Source of the DNA: Denitratisoma sp. DHT3
GTDB taxonomy: Bacteria; Pseudomonadota; Gammaproteobacteria; Burkholderiales; Rhodocyclaceae
Direction of reading: 5' to 3'
Length of the DNA: 64,000 bases
Assembly: GCF_007833355.1 (NCBI RefSeq)
Contig: NZ_CP020914.1
Location: forward strand, 3,334,047-3,398,046
The position numbers were made by a program, and so were the translations under genes. The stretch's first letter is position 1; every line of letters starts with the position of its first letter. The notes below the pieces were generated by a model. It made no database searches, was not told the DNA's origin, and was given only the letters and a program-made list of their open reading frames with translations. Positions 49,591 to 59,423 of this stretch are shown one piece after another.

Positions 49591-52164
49591 TTACCCTGCG
49601 CCCGTGCAGCGGCTGGCGATATGGGCCAGAGCCTCTTCCACCTGGTCGATCAGGACCAGGCAAAGGTCGCCTGGTTCCAACCGCTCCAGGGCGGTATCGA
49701 TGGCCAGGAACTCGCCGCGGATTTCCTCGATCCGGCGGGCCCGGTTGGCCCCTTCCAGGCCCTGGCGCAAGAGCGCCAGCACTTCGCCATCCTCCCGGCC
49801 TCGCTGGCATTGATCCTGGTAGAGCACGACCTCATCGAAAGCGTCGCCCAGAATCCGGGTCTGCTGCCGGATATCCTCGTCGCGCCGGTCGCCGGCGCCG
49901 CTGATGACCACGGTCCGGCGTTTCGTCGGCATGGTGTTCACCGCGTTCACCAGCGCCTGGATGGCATCGGGGTTGTGGCCGTAATCGGCGATCACCGTGG
50001 CGCCCCGGTAGTCGAAGAGATTGAAGCGGCCGGGGGCGGTCCGGGCATCGGCCACGAAACTGCCCAGACCGGCGCGAACCGTCTCCCAATCCAGGTTCAG
50101 CGCCCAGGCGGCGGCCGTGGCGGCCATCACGTTTTCCACCTGGAAGCCGATGTCGCCCTTGCCGGTGATGGGAATCCCGTCCAGCGGCAGGCGCCGCTCC
50201 TCCCAGCCTTCCGCGGCGACGATGTCGTTGCCGTCGACGAAGACCACGCGCCGTCCCTGGGCGCGATGGGTCGCCATCACCGGATGGTTGGGGTCGCGGG
50301 CGAAAAAGGTCACCACCCCCTGGCAGACGGCGGCCATCCGCGCCACCATGGGGTCGGCCGCGTTGAGCACGGCGACGCCCTTGGGCGCGACGTTCTGCAC
50401 GATCACCCGCTTCACCACCGCGAGGTCCTCGACGGTGCTGATGTAGGACAGGCCCAGGTGGTCGCCCAGGCCGATGTTGGTGACCACCGCCACGTCGCAG
50501 CGGTCGAAGGCCAGGCCCTCGCGCAGCACGCCGCCGCGGGCGGTCTCGAACACGGCGGCCTCGACGGCGGGATGCAGCAGCACGTTGCGGGCGCTGCGGG
50601 GACCGCTGCAGTCGCCGGTATCGGTGCGCCGGCCATCGACGTAGACGCCGTCGGTGCTGGTCATGCCGACGCACAGGCCCTGGCTGGCCAGCAGGTGGGC
50701 GATCAGGCGCACCGTGGTGGTCTTGCCGTTGGTGCCGGCCACCGCCACCACCGGAATGCGTCCGTCCTCGCCGTCGGGAAACACCGTGGACACGATGGCC
50801 TCGCCCACCGGGCGGCCTTTGCCGAAGGAGGGCGCCAGATGCATGCGCAGGCCGGGGGCGGCGTTGACCTCGACGATGCCGCCGCCCTGTTCCTCGATGG
50901 GGCGCAACACGCTGTCGCAGACCAGGTCCACGCCGCAGATGTCGAGCCCCACCATCTTCGCCGCCGCCACCGCACGGGCCGCGACTTCGGGATGGACGTC
51001 GTCGGTGACGTCGGTGGCCGAACCGCCGGTGCTCAGATTGGCATTGTTGCGCAGGACCACCCGCATGCCCTTGGGCGGCACCGATTCGGCGCTCAGATTC
51101 TGCGCCGCCAGGCAGGTCAGGGCGATGTCGTCGAAGCGGATCTTGGTCAGCGAGGTGGCATGTCCCTCGCCGCGCCGCGGATCGCTATTGACCTGCTCCA
51201 CCAGCTCGCGCACGGTGTGCGCGCCGTCGCCGGTCACATGCGGCGGTTCGCGCCGGGCGGCCGCCACCAGTTGATCCCCCACCACCAGCAGGCGGTAGTC
51301 CTGGCCGGGCAGGTAGCGCTCCACCAGGATTTCCGAGCTGATCTCGGTGGCGGCGGCATAGGCCGCCTCGAAGCTCTCCCGGTTCTTGATGTTCACCGTG
51401 ACGCCCTTGCCCTGGTTGCCGTCCTGCGGCTTCACCACCACCGGCAGACCGATGTCCAGCGCCGCTTGCCAGCCATCCTCCAGATCGGAGGCCGGACGGC
51501 CCTGCGGCACCGGCACGCCGGCGGCGTCGAGCAGCATCTTGGTGAGCTCCTTGTCCTGGGCGATGGACTCGGCGATAGCGCTGGAACCGTCGGTTTCCGC
51601 CGCCTGGATGCGCCGCTGCCTGCAGCCCCAGCCGAACTGCACCAGGCTGCCTTCGGTCAGGCGCCGGAAGGGAATGCCGCGCAGCATCGCGGCCTGGACG
51701 ATGGCGCCGGTGCTCGGCCCCAGTCGCACGTCCTCGTCGAGCTCCTTGAGCCGCGCCAGGGCGTCCTCCAGATCGAAGGGCTCACCCGTCAGGGCGGTCT
51801 GGCACAGGGTCCGCGCCAAGTCCATCGCCAGGCGGCCCACCGGCTCCTCGCTGTACTCCACCACCACCTGAAAGACCCCGGATTCCACGGTCTGGGTGGT
51901 GCGGCTGAAGGTCACCGGGCAGCCGGCATGGGCCTGCAGCCCGAGGGCGGCGAACTCCAGCGCATGGGCCATGGACACGACATCCCCGTGGCGCGCGGGC
52001 TGCAGCACGCCGATTTCAGGAAAGCGCTGGCGCAGCCGCTCCTCGAAGCCGGCCAGGGTGTCCAGATCGCATTCCTCCGGGGCGCAGGAGACGATCGCCT
52101 CGATCGCGGTGTGGCGGCTCCACAGGTTGGGGCCTCGCAAGGCCCGGATACGAGAGACTTCCAT
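49591..52164 (-). CDS. cphA: Cyanophycin synthetase (CphA1 type)
   Basis: An 857-residue enzyme that polymerises aspartate and arginine into cyanophycin, an insoluble nitrogen reserve, using ATP. Order: an N-terminal cyanophycin domain (about 1-160), an ATP-grasp ligase (PVVVKPQDGNQGKGV near 235, GVDLVCDS, VEVNAAPGLRMHL) and a Mur-ligase-like domain with P-loop AGTNGKTTTVRL near 490, FETARGGVLREG, GRFNLFDYRG and ADYGHNPDA. All active-site motifs look intact. ATG 52164 is 27 bp downstream of cphA', giving a two-gene minus-strand operon. No cyanophycinase is in the window. Confidence 0.96.
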   Translation of the reverse strand: MEVSRIRALRGPNLWSRHTAIEAIVSCAPEECDLDTLAGFEERLRQRFPEIGVLQPARHGDVVSMAHALEFAALGLQAHAGCPVTFSRTTQTVESGVFQVVVEYSEEPVGRLAMDLARTLCQTALTGEPFDLEDALARLKELDEDVRLGPSTGAIVQAAMLRGIPFRRLTEGSLVQFGWGCRQRRIQAAETDGSSAIAESIAQDKELTKMLLDAAGVPVPQGRPASDLEDGWQAALDIGLPVVVKPQDGNQGKGVTVNIKNRESFEAAYAAATEISSEILVERYLPGQDYRLLVVGDQLVAAARREPPHVTGDGAHTVRELVEQVNSDPRRGEGHATSLTKIRFDDIALTCLAAQNLSAESVPPKGMRVVLRNNANLSTGGSATDVTDDVHPEVAARAVAAAKMVGLDICGVDLVCDSVLRPIEEQGGGIVEVNAAPGLRMHLAPSFGKGRPVGEAIVSTVFPDGEDGRIPVVAVAGTNGKTTTVRLIAHLLASQGLCVGMTSTDGVYVDGRRTDTGDCSGPRSARNVLLHPAVEAAVFETARGGVLREGLAFDRCDVAVVTNIGLGDHLGLSYISTVEDLAVVKRVIVQNVAPKGVAVLNAADPMVARMAAVCQGVVTFFARDPNHPVMATHRAQGRRVVFVDGNDIVAAEGWEERRLPLDGIPITGKGDIGFQVENVMAATAAAWALNLDWETVRAGLGSFVADARTAPGRFNLFDYRGATVIADYGHNPDAIQALVNAVNTMPTKRRTVVISGAGDRRDEDIRQQTRILGDAFDEVVLYQDQCQRGREDGEVLALLRQGLEGANRARRIEEIRGEFLAIDTALERLEPGDLCLVLIDQVEEALAHIASRCTGAG

Positions 52165-52191
52165 GGATGGTTTTCCTGAGATGCCGGCGGT

Positions 52192-54381
52192 TCAACCGGC
52201 CCGAACGTTCAAGGTGCGCTCCGCGTTGGCCGGGAGCGCATCGGCGTCGAAGGTGACAATGCCGGTCTGGACCAGATAATCCGGCAGATCGAGGGCCCAG
52301 GCCACGGCCACGGTGGCCAGCATGTCCTCGATGGTGACGGCGGCCGAGCCGCAGCTGGCGGAGATCCGGGCTTCCGTCCGGTCGCCGCGCAGCAGCGCCA
52401 TCTGGCCGGCGCGCAGCACCACCGCGCGTCCGCCTTGCGCGAGATGCGCGGCGACCGCCGGGTTGTCCTCGCGGGCCGCGTAGAAGATCACTTCGCCGTC
52501 GCACAGGCCGGCCATCCGCGCCACCAGCGGGTCGTCGGCGTTGAGCACGGCGGCGCCTCCGGGCAGCACCACGTCGACCTGGGTGCGGAACACGTTATAG
52601 ACCTGCTCCGGCTCGCGCACGTCGAAGGCCGCCAGGCTCTCGGCCCGGTCGAGATGCGTTACCACGCCCACCTGGCAGCGGTCGTAGGTGAGGCCCTCGG
52701 CGAGGATGTCGGCGCCGTCGTTTTCGAATATCGCGACCTTGACGGAACGGTTCAAGAGCACGCGGCGGGCGGATTTCCAGGGACTGCAGTTGCCATCCTG
52801 CACTTGCCGCTGCCCGAAATAGAGGCCGTCGCGGCAGGCCATCCCCAGGGTCTTGCCGCTCAACTGGATCAGCCGCCCCAGCAGCCGCGCGACCATCGTG
52901 GTGCCGCGGGTGCCGGCGATGCCGATGACGGGAATGCGACCCGCGTCCCCCTCCGGGAACAGGTGCTCGACGATCGCCTGGCCTACCGGGCGCGGTTGGC
53001 CGGTAACGGGTTTCAGGTGCATCAGCAGGCTCGGTCCGGCATTGACCTCGACGATGGCACCGCCCTGCGCCTCCAGGGGACGGGAAATGTCCTCCGCCAC
53101 CAGATCGATGCCGGCGATGTCCAGGCCCACGATGCGGGCCGCCAGGGCCACCGAGGCGGCCACTTCGGGATGAACGCGGTCCGTGACGTCGTTGACCATG
53201 TTGCCGTTGCGCTGGATCAGCACCCGCCTGCCCGCGGCGGGGATGGCCTCCCCCTCCAGGCCCTGGCGCGCCAGCAGCAGGCGGGTTGCGGGTTCCCGCT
53301 CCAGGACCAGGGGCTCCAGGGGGAATTCCTCCGCCTCGCCGCGCCGGGGATCGCTGTTGATCTGGGCGTCGATCAACTGGCGCACCGTGGAATCGCCGTC
53401 GCCCTCGATCCACAGGCTGTCGCCGCGGGTGGCGGCCACCAGTTTGCCGCCCACCACCAGCAGACGGTGCTCGTCGCCGCGGACGTAGCGCTCGACGATG
53501 ACCGCGCTGCCTTCGGCGTCGGCCACGCCGAAGGCGGCCTTGACCTCCTCCTCGGTGCCGAGTTCGATCGACACGCCACGGCCATGGTTGCCGTCGCTGG
53601 GCTTGACCACCACCGGCAGGCCGATGTCCTGGGCGGCTTCCCAGGCTTCGTCGGGACTGGCGACGACCTGGCCCTCGGGGACCGGCACGCCGCAGGACTG
53701 CAGCAGGCGTTTGGTCAGATCCTTGTCGCGCGAAATGCCTTCGGCGATCGCGCCGGTGCGGTCGGTCTCGGCGGTCCATACCCGGCGCTGATTGGCGCCG
53801 TGCCCCAGTTGCACCAGATTGCCGTCGTTCAGGCGCAGCGCCGGGATGCCGCGCTCCGCCGCGGCATCGACGATGCTCGCGGTGGAGGGGCCCAGACAGC
53901 GGGCATCGGCCAGCTCATGCAGGCGCGCCACGGTGCCCGCGACATCGAAGGGCGTGTCGTCGATGGCGGCCATCAGCAGGTCGCGGGCGGCATGGAGGCA
54001 GGCGCGGGTGACTTCCTCTTCGCGCGACCGGACCACGACCTTGTACACACCGCGGGTCGAGGTTTCCCGCGCCTTGCCGAAGCCGGTGCGCTGGCCGATC
54101 AGGTTCTGCAGTTCCAGCGTGACGTGCTCCATGATGTGCGCCGGCCACGTGCCTTCGCGCACTCGCCGCAGGAAACCGCCGGGTTCGCCGATGCTGCAGC
54201 GGTGCTCGGCCAGGGTCGGCAGCCAGGCGGAGAGCCGTTCATAGAGGCCGGGTATGGTGTTGGAGGGAGCGTCCTCCAGGTCGCCGATATCCACCAGGGC
54301 CTCCAGGGCCGGGCGGTAGGTCCAGACGTTCGGACCGCGCAAAGGGGTGATCCGCAGGATTTTGATGGTTCTGTCAGCCAT
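52192..54381 (-). CDS. CphA'-type cyanophycin synthetase homologue with degenerate Mur-ligase domain
   Basis: I start at ATG 54381 (MADRTIKILRITPLRGPNVW), giving 729 residues. The N-terminal and ATP-grasp parts are well conserved (PVVVKPSDGNHGRGV, GIDLVAEDI, VEVNAGPSLLMHL). In the Mur-ligase domain the P-loop reads GTRGTTMVARLL: the Lys of GTNGKTT is gone. The protein also ends before the region that in CphA holds GRFNLFDYRG and YGHNPDA. So ATP-grasp chemistry may persist while the second ligase activity should be lost. Second cphA-like genes (cphA') are known beside cphA in betaproteobacteria such as Cupriavidus. It precedes cphA by 27 bp and could act with it. Confidence 0.92.
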   Translation of the reverse strand: MADRTIKILRITPLRGPNVWTYRPALEALVDIGDLEDAPSNTIPGLYERLSAWLPTLAEHRCSIGEPGGFLRRVREGTWPAHIMEHVTLELQNLIGQRTGFGKARETSTRGVYKVVVRSREEEVTRACLHAARDLLMAAIDDTPFDVAGTVARLHELADARCLGPSTASIVDAAAERGIPALRLNDGNLVQLGHGANQRRVWTAETDRTGAIAEGISRDKDLTKRLLQSCGVPVPEGQVVASPDEAWEAAQDIGLPVVVKPSDGNHGRGVSIELGTEEEVKAAFGVADAEGSAVIVERYVRGDEHRLLVVGGKLVAATRGDSLWIEGDGDSTVRQLIDAQINSDPRRGEAEEFPLEPLVLEREPATRLLLARQGLEGEAIPAAGRRVLIQRNGNMVNDVTDRVHPEVAASVALAARIVGLDIAGIDLVAEDISRPLEAQGGAIVEVNAGPSLLMHLKPVTGQPRPVGQAIVEHLFPEGDAGRIPVIGIAGTRGTTMVARLLGRLIQLSGKTLGMACRDGLYFGQRQVQDGNCSPWKSARRVLLNRSVKVAIFENDGADILAEGLTYDRCQVGVVTHLDRAESLAAFDVREPEQVYNVFRTQVDVVLPGGAAVLNADDPLVARMAGLCDGEVIFYAAREDNPAVAAHLAQGGRAVVLRAGQMALLRGDRTEARISASCGSAAVTIEDMLATVAVAWALDLPDYLVQTGIVTFDADALPANAERTLNVRAG

Positions 54382-54635
54382 GGAGAAGGTCAGCGAAGAT
54401 CGGCAGGCGGCCCCGGACCGAGGGGCGGGAGAATTATTTATTGTGGCCCGGTCAACGTGCGGCGTCGAAAATGGTTTACCGATGGACCGCCGCTCCTCCC
54501 GAAGGCTCATCCGGGAGCGTTGAGTATACTGGCGAAGGCGGGGCGATGGCCGGCGGGCCGGTCGTCCCGCAGCTTTCGGGCCCTCCTTGGCGCCGGATGC
54601 CCGCCGTGCGGATTGCCGACCCCAGAACAGGTTTT

Positions 54636-56930
54636 ATGACGAAAAATCTTCCCGTTGCAGCATTTTCCGCGAGCGACACCGTGCCGAATCTCTGGCGCGA
54701 CAGAATCCTTTCCCACCTGGGCGCGGGCGAGCGCCTGCTGGCCTGGATGGAGCCGGATCTCGACGCCCGGCTGCATTTCGAGCGCGGCCTGCTGGTGGTC
54801 ACCGACCGGCGCCTGCTGGCCTGGACGCCAGGCGCGGAAGCCTGGCGGGAGTGGCCCTACCGGGAAGGGCTGCGGCTCTCCCACCACGACCATGCCGGCG
54901 TCGGCATCCTGGAACTGCAGGACGCATCGGCCCGCCTGGCCCACTGGCGCTATACCCTGGGGCAGAACCTGGCGGCCCAGCGTCTTGCCGATCAGTTCGA
55001 TCGGCAGCGGGACAGCTTCCTCGATGGCGTCCCGCTTCCGGTGGACGACGGCGCCGTCTGCCCCCGCTGCAAGGCGCCGCTGGGGCCGGACCAGGATGAG
55101 TGTCCGGTCTGCGCCCGGGAAATCCACACGCCGCCTTCCACCTGGACCCTGCTGCGTCTGTGGCGCTTCGCACGGCCCTATCGGGGGCAGCTGCTGTCCG
55201 GCTTCCTGCTGACCCTGACGGCCACCGCCGCGACCCTGGTGCCGCCCTATCTGTCCATGCCGCTGATGGACAACGTGCTGATCCCCTTCCAGAACGGCAA
55301 GCCGATCGACGTCGGCCTGGTGACGCTCTACCTGGGCGGCCTGCTGGGCGCGGCGCTCCTGGCCTGGGGCCTGGGCTGGGCGCGGACCTACATCCTGGCC
55401 CTGGTCAGCGAGCGCATCGGCGCCGACCTGCGCACCACCACCTACGAGCACCTGCTGAAGCTGTCGCTCGAATATTTCGGCGGCAAGCGCACCGGTGACC
55501 TGATGGCCCGCATCGGCTCCGAGAGCGACCGCATCTGCGTCTTCCTTTCCCTGCACCTGCTGGACTTCGCCACCGACGTGCTGATGATCGGCATGACGGC
55601 GGCGATCCTGATCTCGATCAATCCCTGGCTGGCGCTGGTGACCCTGCTGCCGCTGCCCCTGATCGCCTGGATGATCCACCTGGTGCGCGACCGGCTGCGC
55701 ACCGGCTTCGAGAAGGTGGACCGGATCTGGTCCGAAGTCACCAACGTGCTGGCCGACACCATTCCCGGCATCCGCGTGGTCAAGGCCTTCGCCCAGGAGC
55801 GGCGCGAGGTGGCGCGTTTCCGCGAGGCCAACCAGCACAACCTGGCGATCAACGACCGGGTGAATCGCGTCTGGTCGCTGTTCTCCCCCACCGTGACCCT
55901 GCTCACCGAGACCGGCCTGCTGGTGGTCTGGGCCTTCGGCATCTGGCAGGTGTCGAAGAACCAGATCACCGTCGGCGTACTGACCGCCTTCATCGCCTAT
56001 ATCGGCCGCTTCTACACCCGGCTCGACTCGATGAGCCGCATCGTTTCCGTGACCCAGAAGGCGGCCGCCGGCGCCAAGCGCATTTTCGACATCCTCGACC
56101 ATGTCTCCAGCGTGCCCGAACCGCAGCAACCGGTGCATCTGGACCAGGTGCGGGGCGCGATCGAGCTGCGCGGCGTCGGCTTCCGCTACGGCAACCGCTC
56201 GGTGATCCGCAACCTCGACTTCAGCATCCGGCCCGGCGAGATGATCGGCCTGGTGGGCCACAGCGGCTCCGGCAAGAGCACCCTGGTGAACCTGATCTGC
56301 CGCTTCTACGACGTCAGCGAAGGGGCGGTCCAGGTGGATGGCGTGGACATCCGTTCCCTGCCCGTGGCGGAATACCGGCGCCACATCGGCCTGGTGCTGC
56401 AGGAGCCCTTCCTCTTCTTCGGCACCATCGCCGACAACATCGCCTACGGCAAGCCCGGCGCCAGCCGGGCGGAAATCATCGCCGCCGCCCGCGCCGCCCA
56501 TGCCCACGAGTTCATCCTGCGCCTGCCGCTGGGCTACGACTCCCTGGTGGGGGAGCGGGGCCAGGGGCTCTCCGGCGGCGAGCGCCAGCGCCTGTCGATC
56601 GCGCGGGCGCTCTTGATCGACCCGCGCATCCTGATCATGGACGAGGCCACCTCCTCGGTGGATACGGAGACCGAAAAGGAAATCCAGAAGGCGTTGGACA
56701 ATCTGGTCCAGGGGCGCACCACCATCGCCATCGCCCACCGCCTGTCCACCCTGCGCCGCGCCGACCGGCTGGTGGTGATGGACCGCGGCCAGATCGTCGA
56801 AGTCGGCAACCACGAGCAGCTGATGGCCCGGGAAGGCCACTACTACCGGCTGTACCAGGCCCAGGCCCGCAATGTCGATGTGGATGGGATGGATGGCGAT
56901 GGACGGACCGGGGAGAGCGGCGATGACTGA
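54636..56930 (+). CDS. Cyanophycin-associated ABC transporter with N-terminal PH-like and zinc-ribbon domains
   Basis: I start at ATG 54636 (MTKNLPVAAFSASDTV), giving 764 residues; the frame is open about 65 codons upstream. Order: a PH-like domain (about 30-125, ARLHFERGLLVVTDRRLLAW), a zinc ribbon CPRC...CPVC (near 145-162), a six-helix ABC exporter domain (about 180-475), and an ATPase with Walker A GHSGSGKS (near 545), LSGGERQR, Walker B ILIMDEATSS and H-loop IAHRLS. It is a homodimeric exporter half-transporter by family; the substrate is unknown. It diverges from cphA' and overlaps the DUF1854 gene. Such ABC-DUF1854 pairs recur beside cphA genes, as I recall. Confidence 0.92.
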   Translation: MTKNLPVAAFSASDTVPNLWRDRILSHLGAGERLLAWMEPDLDARLHFERGLLVVTDRRLLAWTPGAEAWREWPYREGLRLSHHDHAGVGILELQDASARLAHWRYTLGQNLAAQRLADQFDRQRDSFLDGVPLPVDDGAVCPRCKAPLGPDQDECPVCAREIHTPPSTWTLLRLWRFARPYRGQLLSGFLLTLTATAATLVPPYLSMPLMDNVLIPFQNGKPIDVGLVTLYLGGLLGAALLAWGLGWARTYILALVSERIGADLRTTTYEHLLKLSLEYFGGKRTGDLMARIGSESDRICVFLSLHLLDFATDVLMIGMTAAILISINPWLALVTLLPLPLIAWMIHLVRDRLRTGFEKVDRIWSEVTNVLADTIPGIRVVKAFAQERREVARFREANQHNLAINDRVNRVWSLFSPTVTLLTETGLLVVWAFGIWQVSKNQITVGVLTAFIAYIGRFYTRLDSMSRIVSVTQKAAAGAKRIFDILDHVSSVPEPQQPVHLDQVRGAIELRGVGFRYGNRSVIRNLDFSIRPGEMIGLVGHSGSGKSTLVNLICRFYDVSEGAVQVDGVDIRSLPVAEYRRHIGLVLQEPFLFFGTIADNIAYGKPGASRAEIIAAARAAHAHEFILRLPLGYDSLVGERGQGLSGGERQRLSIARALLIDPRILIMDEATSSVDTETEKEIQKALDNLVQGRTTIAIAHRLSTLRRADRLVVMDRGQIVEVGNHEQLMAREGHYYRLYQAQARNVDVDGMDGDGRTGESGDD

Positions 56931-57384
56931 ATTCCAACTGACGCGCAATGCTTTCGGCCGGCTGGTGTTCACCGCCGGCGGCGAGTCACACAGCGGCGTG
57001 GTGCCGGTGCGCGCCTTCCCCATCGCCGCACCCGACGAGGGCCTGGCCCTGGTCAATGCCGAGGGTCACGAAGTCGCCTGGATCGAACGCATGACGGAGC
57101 TGCCGGCCGACCAGCGCAGCCTGCTGGAGGAGGAACTGGCGAGCCGGGAGTTCATGCCGGAGATCTGCCGCATCCACGGCGTTTCGAGCTTCGCCACGCC
57201 CAGCACCTGGCAGGTGGAGACCCACCGGGGGGAAACGGCTTTCGTCCTCAAGGGCGAGGAGGACATCCGCCGCCTGGGACACCATACGCTGCTGATCGCC
57301 GACAGCCACGGCATCCAGTTCCTGATCCGGGACATCAAGGTCCTGGACCGGCACAGCCGCAAGCTGCTGGATCGTTTCCTCTAG
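56923..57384 (+). CDS. DUF1854 protein (cyanophycin-associated)
   Basis: I start at ATG 56923 (MTEFQLTRNAFGRLVFTA), overlapping the ABC gene by 8 bp, which gives 153 residues. It is a soluble protein with DUF1854 features, including the acidic LLEEELASREFMPEICRI and the end GIQFLIRDIKVLDRHSRKLLDRFL. Its function is unknown; the tight overlap implies it works with the ABC protein. Its TAG stop codon lies inside the 4-bp target duplication CTAG of the IS1380-family element, so the insertion left the protein intact. Confidence 0.9.
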   Translation: MTEFQLTRNAFGRLVFTAGGESHSGVVPVRAFPIAAPDEGLALVNAEGHEVAWIERMTELPADQRSLLEEELASREFMPEICRIHGVSSFATPSTWQVETHRGETAFVLKGEEDIRRLGHHTLLIADSHGIQFLIRDIKVLDRHSRKLLDRFL

Positions 57385-57459
57385 CCCGGATATTTCACCA
57401 GCCCTATGATTTGGGCGCGTAGATATGCTGGACGGGTTGATCGTGATGCGTGTGGAGGC

Positions 57460-57482
57460 ATTTGATCAAATCTTGATCAAAT
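57460..57482. repeat. Tandem TTGATCAAAT repeat in the IS end
   Basis: The 12-bp palindrome ATTTGATCAAAT (57460-57471) is followed at once by a second TTGATCAAAT (57473-57482). It lies inside the element, between its left end and the transposase stop codon, and may bind transposase or host factors. Confidence 0.4.
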
Positions 57483-57550
57483 AAGCGAATTTCAGACGGA
57501 CTTCCCCCAACCCCCGAAGCTCACCATGTCGGGGACGCACTCGGTTGCGG

Positions 57551-58864
57551 CTATGGAGACGCCAAGGCGTTGGCGGCGATGAAGTAGATATCGCGCAGCG
57601 GATGGTGCGACGCCAGCAGGATGCGAATGCGCCGCGTATTGCGAATCACCGCCGCCCCGATCTTGAGCAGTTTTACGCGAATCGTCGCCGCCGTGGCCTT
57701 CGCCAGATCGGTGTGCCGGAGCGCGATCTCGCGCAGGCGTTGCATCAGCGTGTAAGCCAATGCCGAGAACAAGATGCGCAGCCAGTTGGCCAGGAACTTG
57801 TGGCAACTGGCGCGCGTACCGAACAGATCCAACTGGGTTTCCTTGATCCGGTTCTCGGCCTCGCCCCGCTGGCAGTAGAGGTCGTCATACAGCTCCTCGG
57901 CAGGACGGTCGAGGTTGGTCACGATGAAACGCGGATTGGTGCCCTGGACGCCAAACTCCAGGCGGGTGATCAGGCGTCGTTCCCGATCCCAGCTCTTGGC
58001 GGCGTAGGAGAATTGCCGGATCAGTCGCTGCTTGACCCCGGTGTCGTGGAAAGCCTGCGCCATCGTCTGCTCCCAGTCAGCTACGTGGCGATGCAGACGG
58101 GCATTCCTCGCCATCCCGATGATGTAGCCGACGCCGTGGCGTTCGCACCAGCGGATCAGGCGCTGGCGGCAGAATCCCGAATCCCCGCGCACAATGATCC
58201 GCAGGGCCGGCCAGGTCTGGCGTAGCCGGGTCACGATCAGCTTGATTACGGCGGCCGCATGCTTGGCACCGTCGATCCGGCTGCGGCGCAGGACGCAGGC
58301 GAGCATGGCCTTGCCAGCGAACACATACAGGGGCAGGTAGCAGTAGTGGTCGTAGTAGGCGTGGAACTCGGTCTGTTCCTGTTCCCCGTGCAGCGGGATG
58401 TCGGAGGCGTCGATGTCCAGCACCAGTTCCTCCGGACAGGTCGCCTGGCTAGCAATGAACTGGTCGACCAGTACCCGGTTCAAGGCCACGATGTCCGATC
58501 GCGTGGCCCGCTGCTCCAGCCGACACAGGGTCGGGCTGCTGCCCAATTCATCACCCGTGCCGACGGCGGTTTGCATCAGCGGGTCGTTGCGCAGGGCGGC
58601 ATGGTCGTTCAGATCCTCGTACCCGCAGCACAGGGCATACAGGCGCTGGGCGACCAGGTCGCGCATCCCATGCGTGATGCGATCCTGATCCCGTGGGTCG
58701 TGCAGTGCTTCCGCTACCGCACGTGACAATCCAATGCGCCGGTCGACTTGCCGCAGCAGCATCAGGCCGCCATCGGAACTGAGCGCGCCACCCTCAAAAT
58801 TCGCCTCAATCGTGCAACGACCCAGGCGCCCAAACTCCATGTCCCCACGCGTACAATTTGGCAT
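57551..58864 (-). CDS. IS1380-family transposase
   Basis: A 437-residue transposase of the DDE superfamily, full length for IS1380. Conserved features include GGLMLLRQVDRRIGLSR, the catalytic LVLDIDASD (first Asp region), IIVRGDSGFCR (second Asp) and the YCQRGEAENRIKE block with the Glu. It mobilises the surrounding element by cut-and-paste. The reading frame is uninterrupted. Confidence 0.93.
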   Translation of the reverse strand: MPNCTRGDMEFGRLGRCTIEANFEGGALSSDGGLMLLRQVDRRIGLSRAVAEALHDPRDQDRITHGMRDLVAQRLYALCCGYEDLNDHAALRNDPLMQTAVGTGDELGSSPTLCRLEQRATRSDIVALNRVLVDQFIASQATCPEELVLDIDASDIPLHGEQEQTEFHAYYDHYCYLPLYVFAGKAMLACVLRRSRIDGAKHAAAVIKLIVTRLRQTWPALRIIVRGDSGFCRQRLIRWCERHGVGYIIGMARNARLHRHVADWEQTMAQAFHDTGVKQRLIRQFSYAAKSWDRERRLITRLEFGVQGTNPRFIVTNLDRPAEELYDDLYCQRGEAENRIKETQLDLFGTRASCHKFLANWLRILFSALAYTLMQRLREIALRHTDLAKATAATIRVKLLKIGAAVIRNTRRIRILLASHHPLRDIYFIAANALASP

Positions 58865-58979
58865 CGGCGGAATACTCCGTTAACCCTGTCTCGACACCAG
58901 TATTAACGCGCCTCACGGCGATTCCGCCGACCTACTTTCGTGAAATATTCGGGCTAGCCTGGACCGGGAGTGCCGTTTC

Positions 58980-59423
58980 ATGAAGCGTCTTCTTTGCCTA
59001 CTGATAACCTTCGCCGGCGCGGCAAGCGCGTCGTGGGGCCAGCAGAGTCTGCCGGCGATGGAACTTTCCGCCGGCATCCACCGCATCGAGGCCGAGGTGG
59101 CTTCGACCCAGCCGCAGCGCATGCAGGGTCTCATGCACCGCCAGTCGATGGCCGCCAATCACGGCATGCTGTTCGTCTTCACCCAGCAGGCGCGGCACTG
59201 CATGTGGATGAAGAACACCCTGTTGCCGTTGGCCGTCGCCTTCCTGGACGAGCAGGGGCGGATTCTCAACGTCGCCGAGATGCGGCCCGGCAGCGAGGAG
59301 ACCCATTGCGCCGCGAGCCCCGCCCGCTATGCCCTGGAAATGAACACCGGCTGGTTCAAAAGCCGCGGCCTGACCGCCGGCGCCGTCATCCGCGGCGTGG
59401 ACAAGGCGCCGGTGCCGCAATGA
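58980..59423 (+). CDS. DUF192 exported protein
   Basis: A 147-residue protein with a signal peptide (MKRLLCLLITFAGAASASWG, likely cleavage near residue 20). The mature part is a DUF192 domain: QRMQGLMHRQSMAANHGMLF, CMWMKNTLLPLAVAFLD and GWFKSRGLTAG. The function of DUF192 is unknown; a periplasmic location is inferred. It begins 22 bp after the right CTAG copy of the IS, and its stop codon overlaps the start of the oxidoreductase gene (ATGA). Confidence 0.88.
   Translation: MKRLLCLLITFAGAASASWGQQSLPAMELSAGIHRIEAEVASTQPQRMQGLMHRQSMAANHGMLFVFTQQARHCMWMKNTLLPLAVAFLDEQGRILNVAEMRPGSEETHCAASPARYALEMNTGWFKSRGLTAGAVIRGVDKAPVPQ

Follow-up and report, generated by a model that had tools for sequence, protein, structure and literature searches.

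Organisation of the locus

In Denitratisoma sp. DHT3 (Burkholderiales, Rhodocyclaceae), a stretch of 64,000 nucleotides of contig NZ_CP020914.1 (positions 3,334,047 to 3,398,046; hereafter the window, with coordinates counted from its first nucleotide) contains two cyanophycin synthetase genes on the minus strand, which face an ATP-binding cassette (ABC) exporter gene and a DUF1854 gene on the plus strand. The first synthetase gene, cphA (49591-52164), encodes 857 amino acids (aa) and matches the NF010623 profile with 1270 bits; the second, cphA' (52192-54381), encodes 729 aa and matches positions 1-720 of the same 871-position profile with 1022 bits. The start of cphA' is the conserved MADRT (54381), while the open frame itself extends to 54510. 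Across a divergent intergenic region of 254 base pairs (bp; 54382-54635) lies the exporter gene (54636-56930), whose 764-aa product consists of an N-terminal region with a zinc ribbon, a membrane domain and an ATPase, the latter two being fused (PF00664, PF00005) in a type IV, MsbA-like architecture. The product scores 1460.5 bits against NF052233 (CphA_assoc_ABC, cut-off 880). The DUF1854 gene (56923-57384) encodes 153 aa that match NF052234 (CphA_assoc_prot) with 241.4 bits (cut-off 150) and PF08909 with 187 bits; its ATG at 56923 precedes the stop codon of the exporter gene (56928-56930), which gives an overlap of 8 bp. Both the divergent arrangement and the overlap agree with the original prediction made for this DNA.

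Both protein families carry names in NCBIfam that refer to metabolism associated with cyanophycin, and no difference was found between them and the window proteins, next to which cphA is found; the link is therefore already known to annotators. A related cluster (Group 1) from activated sludge, described in PMC10687191, likewise contains two cphA genes, an ABC transporter and insertion sequence (IS) elements but no cphB, the gene for cyanophycinase (CphB). In this respect, the earlier suggestion that the system is incompletely described holds only in part: the cluster and the family names exist, whereas a mechanism is absent from the names. Section 3.3 of PMC10687191 contains no DUF1854, no catalytic residues and no co-occurrence test, and the literature search found no paper on DUF1854, alone or with cyanophycin, and none on cyanophycin export. 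What is new here comprises the co-occurrence counts, the retention of separated blocks, the survey of neighbours, the division of residues between CphA and CphA', and the search for degradation enzymes in the genome to which the window belongs.

Linkage and co-occurrence with cyanophycin genes

Gene order was counted in the best 80 named DUF1854 relatives (out of at least 563 relatives found), with up to 10 kilobases (kb) taken on each side. The ABC gene lies directly upstream of DUF1854 in 79 loci, and in the remaining one the contig begins too close. The cphA'-cphA pair is divergent from ABC-DUF1854 in 51/80 loci, and 17/80 show the co-directional order ABC-DUF1854-cphA'-cphA. The other 12 comprise ten contig ends, a split cphA (L112), and L077, which has no cphA within 10 kb and carries a cphA-cphA' pair elsewhere in its genome. 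Among 100 loci, no other neighbour family occurs in more than 9, with the limit that greedy picking of open reading frames may miss genes in GC-rich DNA. The cphA gene of L112 and the ABC gene of L169 are apparently split by frameshifts or assembly errors.

Co-occurrence was analysed in a phylum sample (348 Pseudomonadota genomes with a completeness of 90% or more, the same set being used for DUF1854, cphA and cyanophycinase) and in an order sample (250 Burkholderiales genomes); the two samples share genomes and their tests are thus not independent. In the phylum sample, cphA is above the cut-off in 22/22 genomes with a strong DUF1854 match. From these, G304 was excluded (27 bits, best ABC relative with 31% identity, cphA below the cut-off), and G117 was retained despite 8% assembly contamination. 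In the order sample, cphA is found in 95 genomes and DUF1854 in 88, every one of which is among the 95. The survey that had been proposed with the original prediction, which named a pair found mostly without cphA as the unfavourable outcome, therefore gave the opposite result in Pseudomonadota, and the assignment of ABC-DUF1854 to cyanophycin metabolism is strongly supported by co-occurrence in this phylum.

Is it conceivable that the linkage reflects only descent or shared mobility, without functional meaning? Insertion sequences near some copies, in this case an IS1380-family element, might suggest so. However, when 11 genomes of the order sample with hits far apart or on different contigs were fetched, five proved to be separated, and the six others were either linked, located at the end of a contig, or had about 8 kb between the blocks. 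In all, there are six genomes in which both blocks are retained at a distance of more than 10 kb: at 0.77 megabases (Mb) in G485, 0.35 Mb in G534, 2.3 Mb on its contig in G515, on different contigs in G542, about 13 kb apart in G462, and beyond 10 kb in G590. Such retention of both blocks despite their separation is not what plain hitchhiking predicts, and the lack of a further neighbour common to more than 9 of the 100 loci points the same way. Mobility on plasmids was also considered and none was seen: the sole match at E<=1 among 72,556 plasmid records, from which near records of the window genome were possibly excluded, is a distant gene of Gemmatirosa. The explanation by descent or mobility, already disfavoured, is thus highly improbable, and the exporter pair is almost certainly tied functionally to this type of cyanophycin synthesis.

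The distribution of cyanophycinase adds a second pattern. In the phylum sample, the enzyme is found above the cut-off in 8/8 cphA genomes without DUF1854 versus 2/22 with DUF1854 (Fisher test, 7.7e-6), and in the order sample in 7/7 (above the cut-off, 233-251 bits) versus 6/88 (Fisher test, 1.6e-7). Both values ignore descent, six of the seven cphA genomes without DUF1854 in the order sample belonging to one genus. Two alternative types of system are the best reading of this pattern. Two of the six DUF1854 genomes with a cyanophycinase-family protein, G240 and G589, have an additional cphA that lies about 5 kb or less from the cyanophycinase gene. In the other four (G380, G420, G449, G541), the family scores are 136-172 bits, and the gene lies more than 150 kb from cphA (G449, G420) or on a separate contig (G380, G541). 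The window genome itself (one contig, 99.97% complete) gave no match to cyanophycinase (TIGR02069), IaaA (PF01112) or IadA (TIGR01975) in profile searches.

Loci of the cyanophycinase type show some features of their own. In L154 (G240) and L155 (G589), two further cphA-like genes lie on opposite strands near the cyanophycinase gene, ABC-DUF1854 also being present in both genomes; these extra genes lack the N-domain motif discussed below, and the one aligned per locus has Gln267. A second Mur-ligase-like gene (frames of about 580-720 aa) adjoins cphA1 in 10/16 cphB-type loci (L148-L153, L156-L158, and L161).

Division of residues between CphA and CphA'

The storage system formed by CphA1 and cyanophycinase relies on a synthetase with an ATP-grasp G domain and a Mur-ligase M domain, and both sites are likewise present in the window, although across the CphA/CphA' pair. 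Residues were counted in 88 CphA (bit-score cut-off 700) and 92 CphA' (cut-off 450) from 102 scanned stretches and compared with the solved CphA1 and 14 classical single CphA1 proteins (G240 and G589 were excluded and shown apart), which, unlike the pair in the window, carry the N, G and M sites on a single chain. The N-domain motif Cx19HxxEH is present in 92/92 CphA' and 14/14 classical CphA1 and is complete in only 1/88 CphA (L035). In the M domain, the P-loop Lys, Asp585, His586 and the Arg of FETARGG are found in 87-88 of the 88 CphA and in all 14 classical proteins, whereas CphA' retains the P-loop Lys in 55/92, Asp585 in 36/92 and His586 in 29/92, and at the position of the FETARGG Arg, the commonest residues listed do not include Arg. 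The Mur C-terminal domain is absent in about 69/92 CphA'; 69/92 lack the P-loop pattern and 66-69 show gaps in the lid columns, with 23 proteins keeping both in part.

A clean split, with the N and G sites in CphA' and the M site in CphA, had to be softened. In the G domain, His267 occurs in 91/92 CphA' and 14/14 classical CphA1 and is Gln in 88/88 CphA, whereas Arg458, assigned to Asp recognition in PMC9427784, is present in 88/88 CphA and 14/14 classical proteins and is replaced by Leu in 91/92 CphA' (with one gap). Thus, CphA' has His267 but Leu458, CphA shows the reverse, and the STGG loop is missing in 92/92 CphA'. The window proteins follow this division: CphA has an intact Arg-adding M domain, Gln for His267 and a lost N-domain peptidase site, whereas CphA' has intact Cx19HxxEH and His267, together with Leu in the place of Arg458 and an altered P-loop in its M domain, and has neither a Mur-ligase C-terminal domain nor the STGG loop. 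Given this distribution and the mutations E82Q, H267A and D585A/H586A, which are reported to inactivate the N, G and M sites, respectively (PMC9262961), CphA is probably the polymerase and CphA' probably carries the chain-cutting site. In cyanobacterial CphA2, the P-loop and lid of the M domain are also missing (PMC9427784), as they are in the CphA' of the window; however, CphA2 is described as having no N-domain motif (PMC9262961), unlike all CphA' examined.

One locus departs from this division. In L035 (G117, contig 9), the N motif, Gln267 and the M site are joined in one CphA beside ABC-DUF1854; this CphA lies at the end of its contig, in an assembly with 8% contamination. Since Gln267 stands here together with the N motif and the M site, it does not necessarily indicate that the G site is inactive, and this CphA is perhaps an unsplit, possibly ancestral, form. 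Among the CphA' proteins, 23/92 are of full length (872-947 aa) and have the P-loop pattern with several altered M-domain residues; 21 of them come from Cupriavidus, Pandoraea and Achromobacter loci. Judged by their residues, they resemble an earlier step in the loss of the M domain.

The exporter and the DUF1854 protein

All 95 exporter homologues have unbroken Walker A, signature and H-loop patterns, and the strict Walker B pattern is found in 87/95, including the window protein. Of the N-terminal features predicted originally, the zinc ribbon (CxxC-x10-CxxC) is well founded, as it occurs in 88/95 homologues, whereas the PH-like label finds little support: Pfam bPH_3 matched 4/48 homologues, with a best E value of 0.072. 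A comparison of this region with known folds by sequence gave matches at chance level only (best E 0.68). In the DUF1854 protein, no signal peptide is seen by eye at the start, and a comparison with PDB sequences gave nothing below E 1. A kinship of DUF1854 with the N-terminal domain of the exporter was considered and is unsupported (hhalign probability 3.1%).

The zinc-ribbon N-terminal region and an apparently signal-less DUF1854 resemble docking parts. It is therefore worth considering that ABC-DUF1854 serves as a membrane anchor, which holds the synthetase or granule or couples it to the state of the membrane and transports no cyanophycin. Nonetheless, the conservation of Walker A, signature and H-loop in every homologue is more than anchoring requires, and such a role is quite unlikely. 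The original prediction made no choice between a coating component, contact with the membrane, and the export of dipeptides or monomers; the evidence leans to export, and the substrate is one that we infer.

Several charged residues of the membrane domain are strongly conserved. Asp345, Arg493, Asp495 and Arg499 (numbering from 54543) are invariant in 95/95 exporters, Arg489 is present in 94/95, and an acidic residue always occupies position 456 (92 Glu, 3 Asp). Both 345 and 456 fall within hydrophobic peaks; residues 489-499 are placed at the sixth helix by alignment, yet fall below the hydropathy threshold used. A zwitterionic peptide would be compatible with such charges, which are no proof of it. 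The closest solved structures are TM287/288-type and multidrug exporters or an uncharacterised relative, followed by lipid A and peptide exporters, and the nearest other NCBIfam models are MsbA-like. The exporter could thus carry another product of the same physiology, such as a lipid, a glycan or a different peptide, its tie to cyanophycin being indirect. An exporter-DUF1854 pair without linked cphA in Gemmatirosa kalamazoonensis (Gemmatimonadota) agrees with this possibility. However, the 88/88 co-occurrence, the two gene orders and the unlinked co-retention fit a direct tie better, and a different product is unlikely.

On plasmid 1 of G. kalamazoonensis, an ABC gene (42% identity) is directly followed by DUF1854 (29%), as in the window. 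This pair differs from that of the window in that no cphA accompanies it on the plasmid, no zinc ribbon appears in the alignment, and the charges differ at most of the compared membrane-domain positions: its exporter has Ser, Pro, Glu, Gln, Met and His at the six positions, and only an acidic residue at 495 is shared. Together with the DUF1854 match of Sulfolobus acidocaldarius, this single distant pair suggests, most simply, that DUF1854 may be an accessory of this type of exporter that was recruited to cyanophycin in the present lineage.

A possible route for cyanophycin out of the cytoplasm

Because the pair occupies the place of cyanophycinase and the window genome yielded none of the known breakdown enzymes searched for, outward export appears to be the most economical reading: the exporter and the divided synthetase may stand in for cyanophycinase and move cyanophycin-derived material outward, which we consider plausible but hold only tentatively. 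The beta-proteobacterial type of locus would then be a four-gene module (cphA, cphA', ABC exporter and DUF1854) that replaces cphA1-cyanophycinase. CphA would carry out the polymerisation of Asp and Arg, and CphA' would supply the N-domain endo-cyanophycinase lost by CphA, cutting chains to short (beta-Asp-Arg)n. From the cytoplasm, the ATP-driven exporter would remove chains or oligopeptides that derive from cyanophycin, with DUF1854 as its putative cytosolic accessory subunit, perhaps in a physical complex, and with the zinc-ribbon N-terminal region as the presumed docking part. The bolder form of this reading, in which Betaproteobacteria secrete cyanophycin or sized (beta-Asp-Arg)n that CphA polymerises, CphA' trims and ABC-DUF1854 exports, is possible, though somewhat doubtful. 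If true, cyanophycin in these bacteria would be an extracellular or periplasmic polymer or a peptide signal and not a cytoplasmic store, and the lack of a recognised cyanophycinase in most of these genomes would be accounted for by secretion.

Several findings weigh against export. No conserved outer-membrane partner was found nearby in the 100 loci, and 6/88 DUF1854 genomes of the order sample also have a cyanophycinase-family protein. The descent of linked blocks inflates the association. The P-loop Lys kept in 55/92 CphA' means that loss of the M site is not uniform. Charged cavity residues occur also in lipid exporters such as MsbA. Moreover, no cphA was found on Gemmatirosa plasmid 1 (the chromosome was not searched), and in S. 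acidocaldarius the DUF1854 profile matches, whereas cphA does not at E 1e-200; these two occurrences imply that ABC-DUF1854 is not intrinsically a cyanophycin device. Finally, among 903 complete beta-proteobacterial genomes with CphA1, the isoaspartyl dipeptidases IadA and/or IaaA are reported in 70.9% and a recognisable cyanophycinase in only 2.8% (PMC10206079); the former figure fits turnover inside the cell.

The last point also favours the main rival, which is that cyanophycin remains an intracellular store, that CphA' or DUF1854 is the missing cyanophycinase, and that the exporter only relieves an excess of Asp, Arg or dipeptide. The universal Cx19HxxEH of CphA' agrees with this as well, since the same N-domain site is an endo-cyanophycinase in SuCphA1 (PMC9262961). 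On the other hand, that activity is slow in the same report, and the window genome has no IadA or IaaA match to complete the breakdown. DUF1854 itself was considered as a hydrolase; across 17 sequences, it shows neither an invariant His nor an invariant Cys, and it follows the ABC gene in Gemmatirosa, with no cphA found on the plasmid; Glu52, Asp144 and Ser147 are invariant in the 17 sequences, which leaves some room for a hydrolase role. Taken together, this intracellular alternative is rather unlikely.

The window differs from CphA1-cyanophycinase storage by the absence of a cyanophycinase match, the two synthetases with divided sites, the ABC exporter and DUF1854. How such bacteria use a polymer that they seemingly cannot degrade was already asked in 2016 (PMC5178258), and PMC10687191 asks what replaces cphB and calls for the study of cphB analogues and of genes for cyanophycin transport. 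There are now concrete candidates for both: the peptidase site of CphA' as the cphB analogue, and the exporter found in the genomic place of cyanophycinase as the transport gene.

Regulation and neighbouring elements

A regulator shared by both blocks was considered and rejected, as none of four tested consensus sites (sigma-54, NtrC, ArgR or Fnr) is enriched in 73 divergent intergenic regions. Outside the system, an insertion of the IS1380 family (57385-58953, minus strand) sits exactly at the stop codon of DUF1854, which is preserved by the target duplication (57381-58957). The transposase gene (57551-58864; NF033539) thus lies between DUF1854 and DUF192; the ends of the element are imperfect 14-bp inverted repeats within 57381-57398 and 58940-58957, and the duplicated target CTAG is found at 57381-57384 and 58954-58957. 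A composite transposon has been proposed for the activated-sludge cluster in PMC10687191.

The DUF192 gene (58980-59423, plus strand; PF02643) had been counted as a member of the exporter run. It lies within 10 kb in 9/80 relatives and is adjacent in one (L118), so it is a positional neighbour and not a conserved part. The element has displaced it by about 1.6 kb; once the insertion is subtracted, the distance from the DUF1854 stop to the DUF192 start is 22 bp, close to the approximately 25 bp predicted originally.

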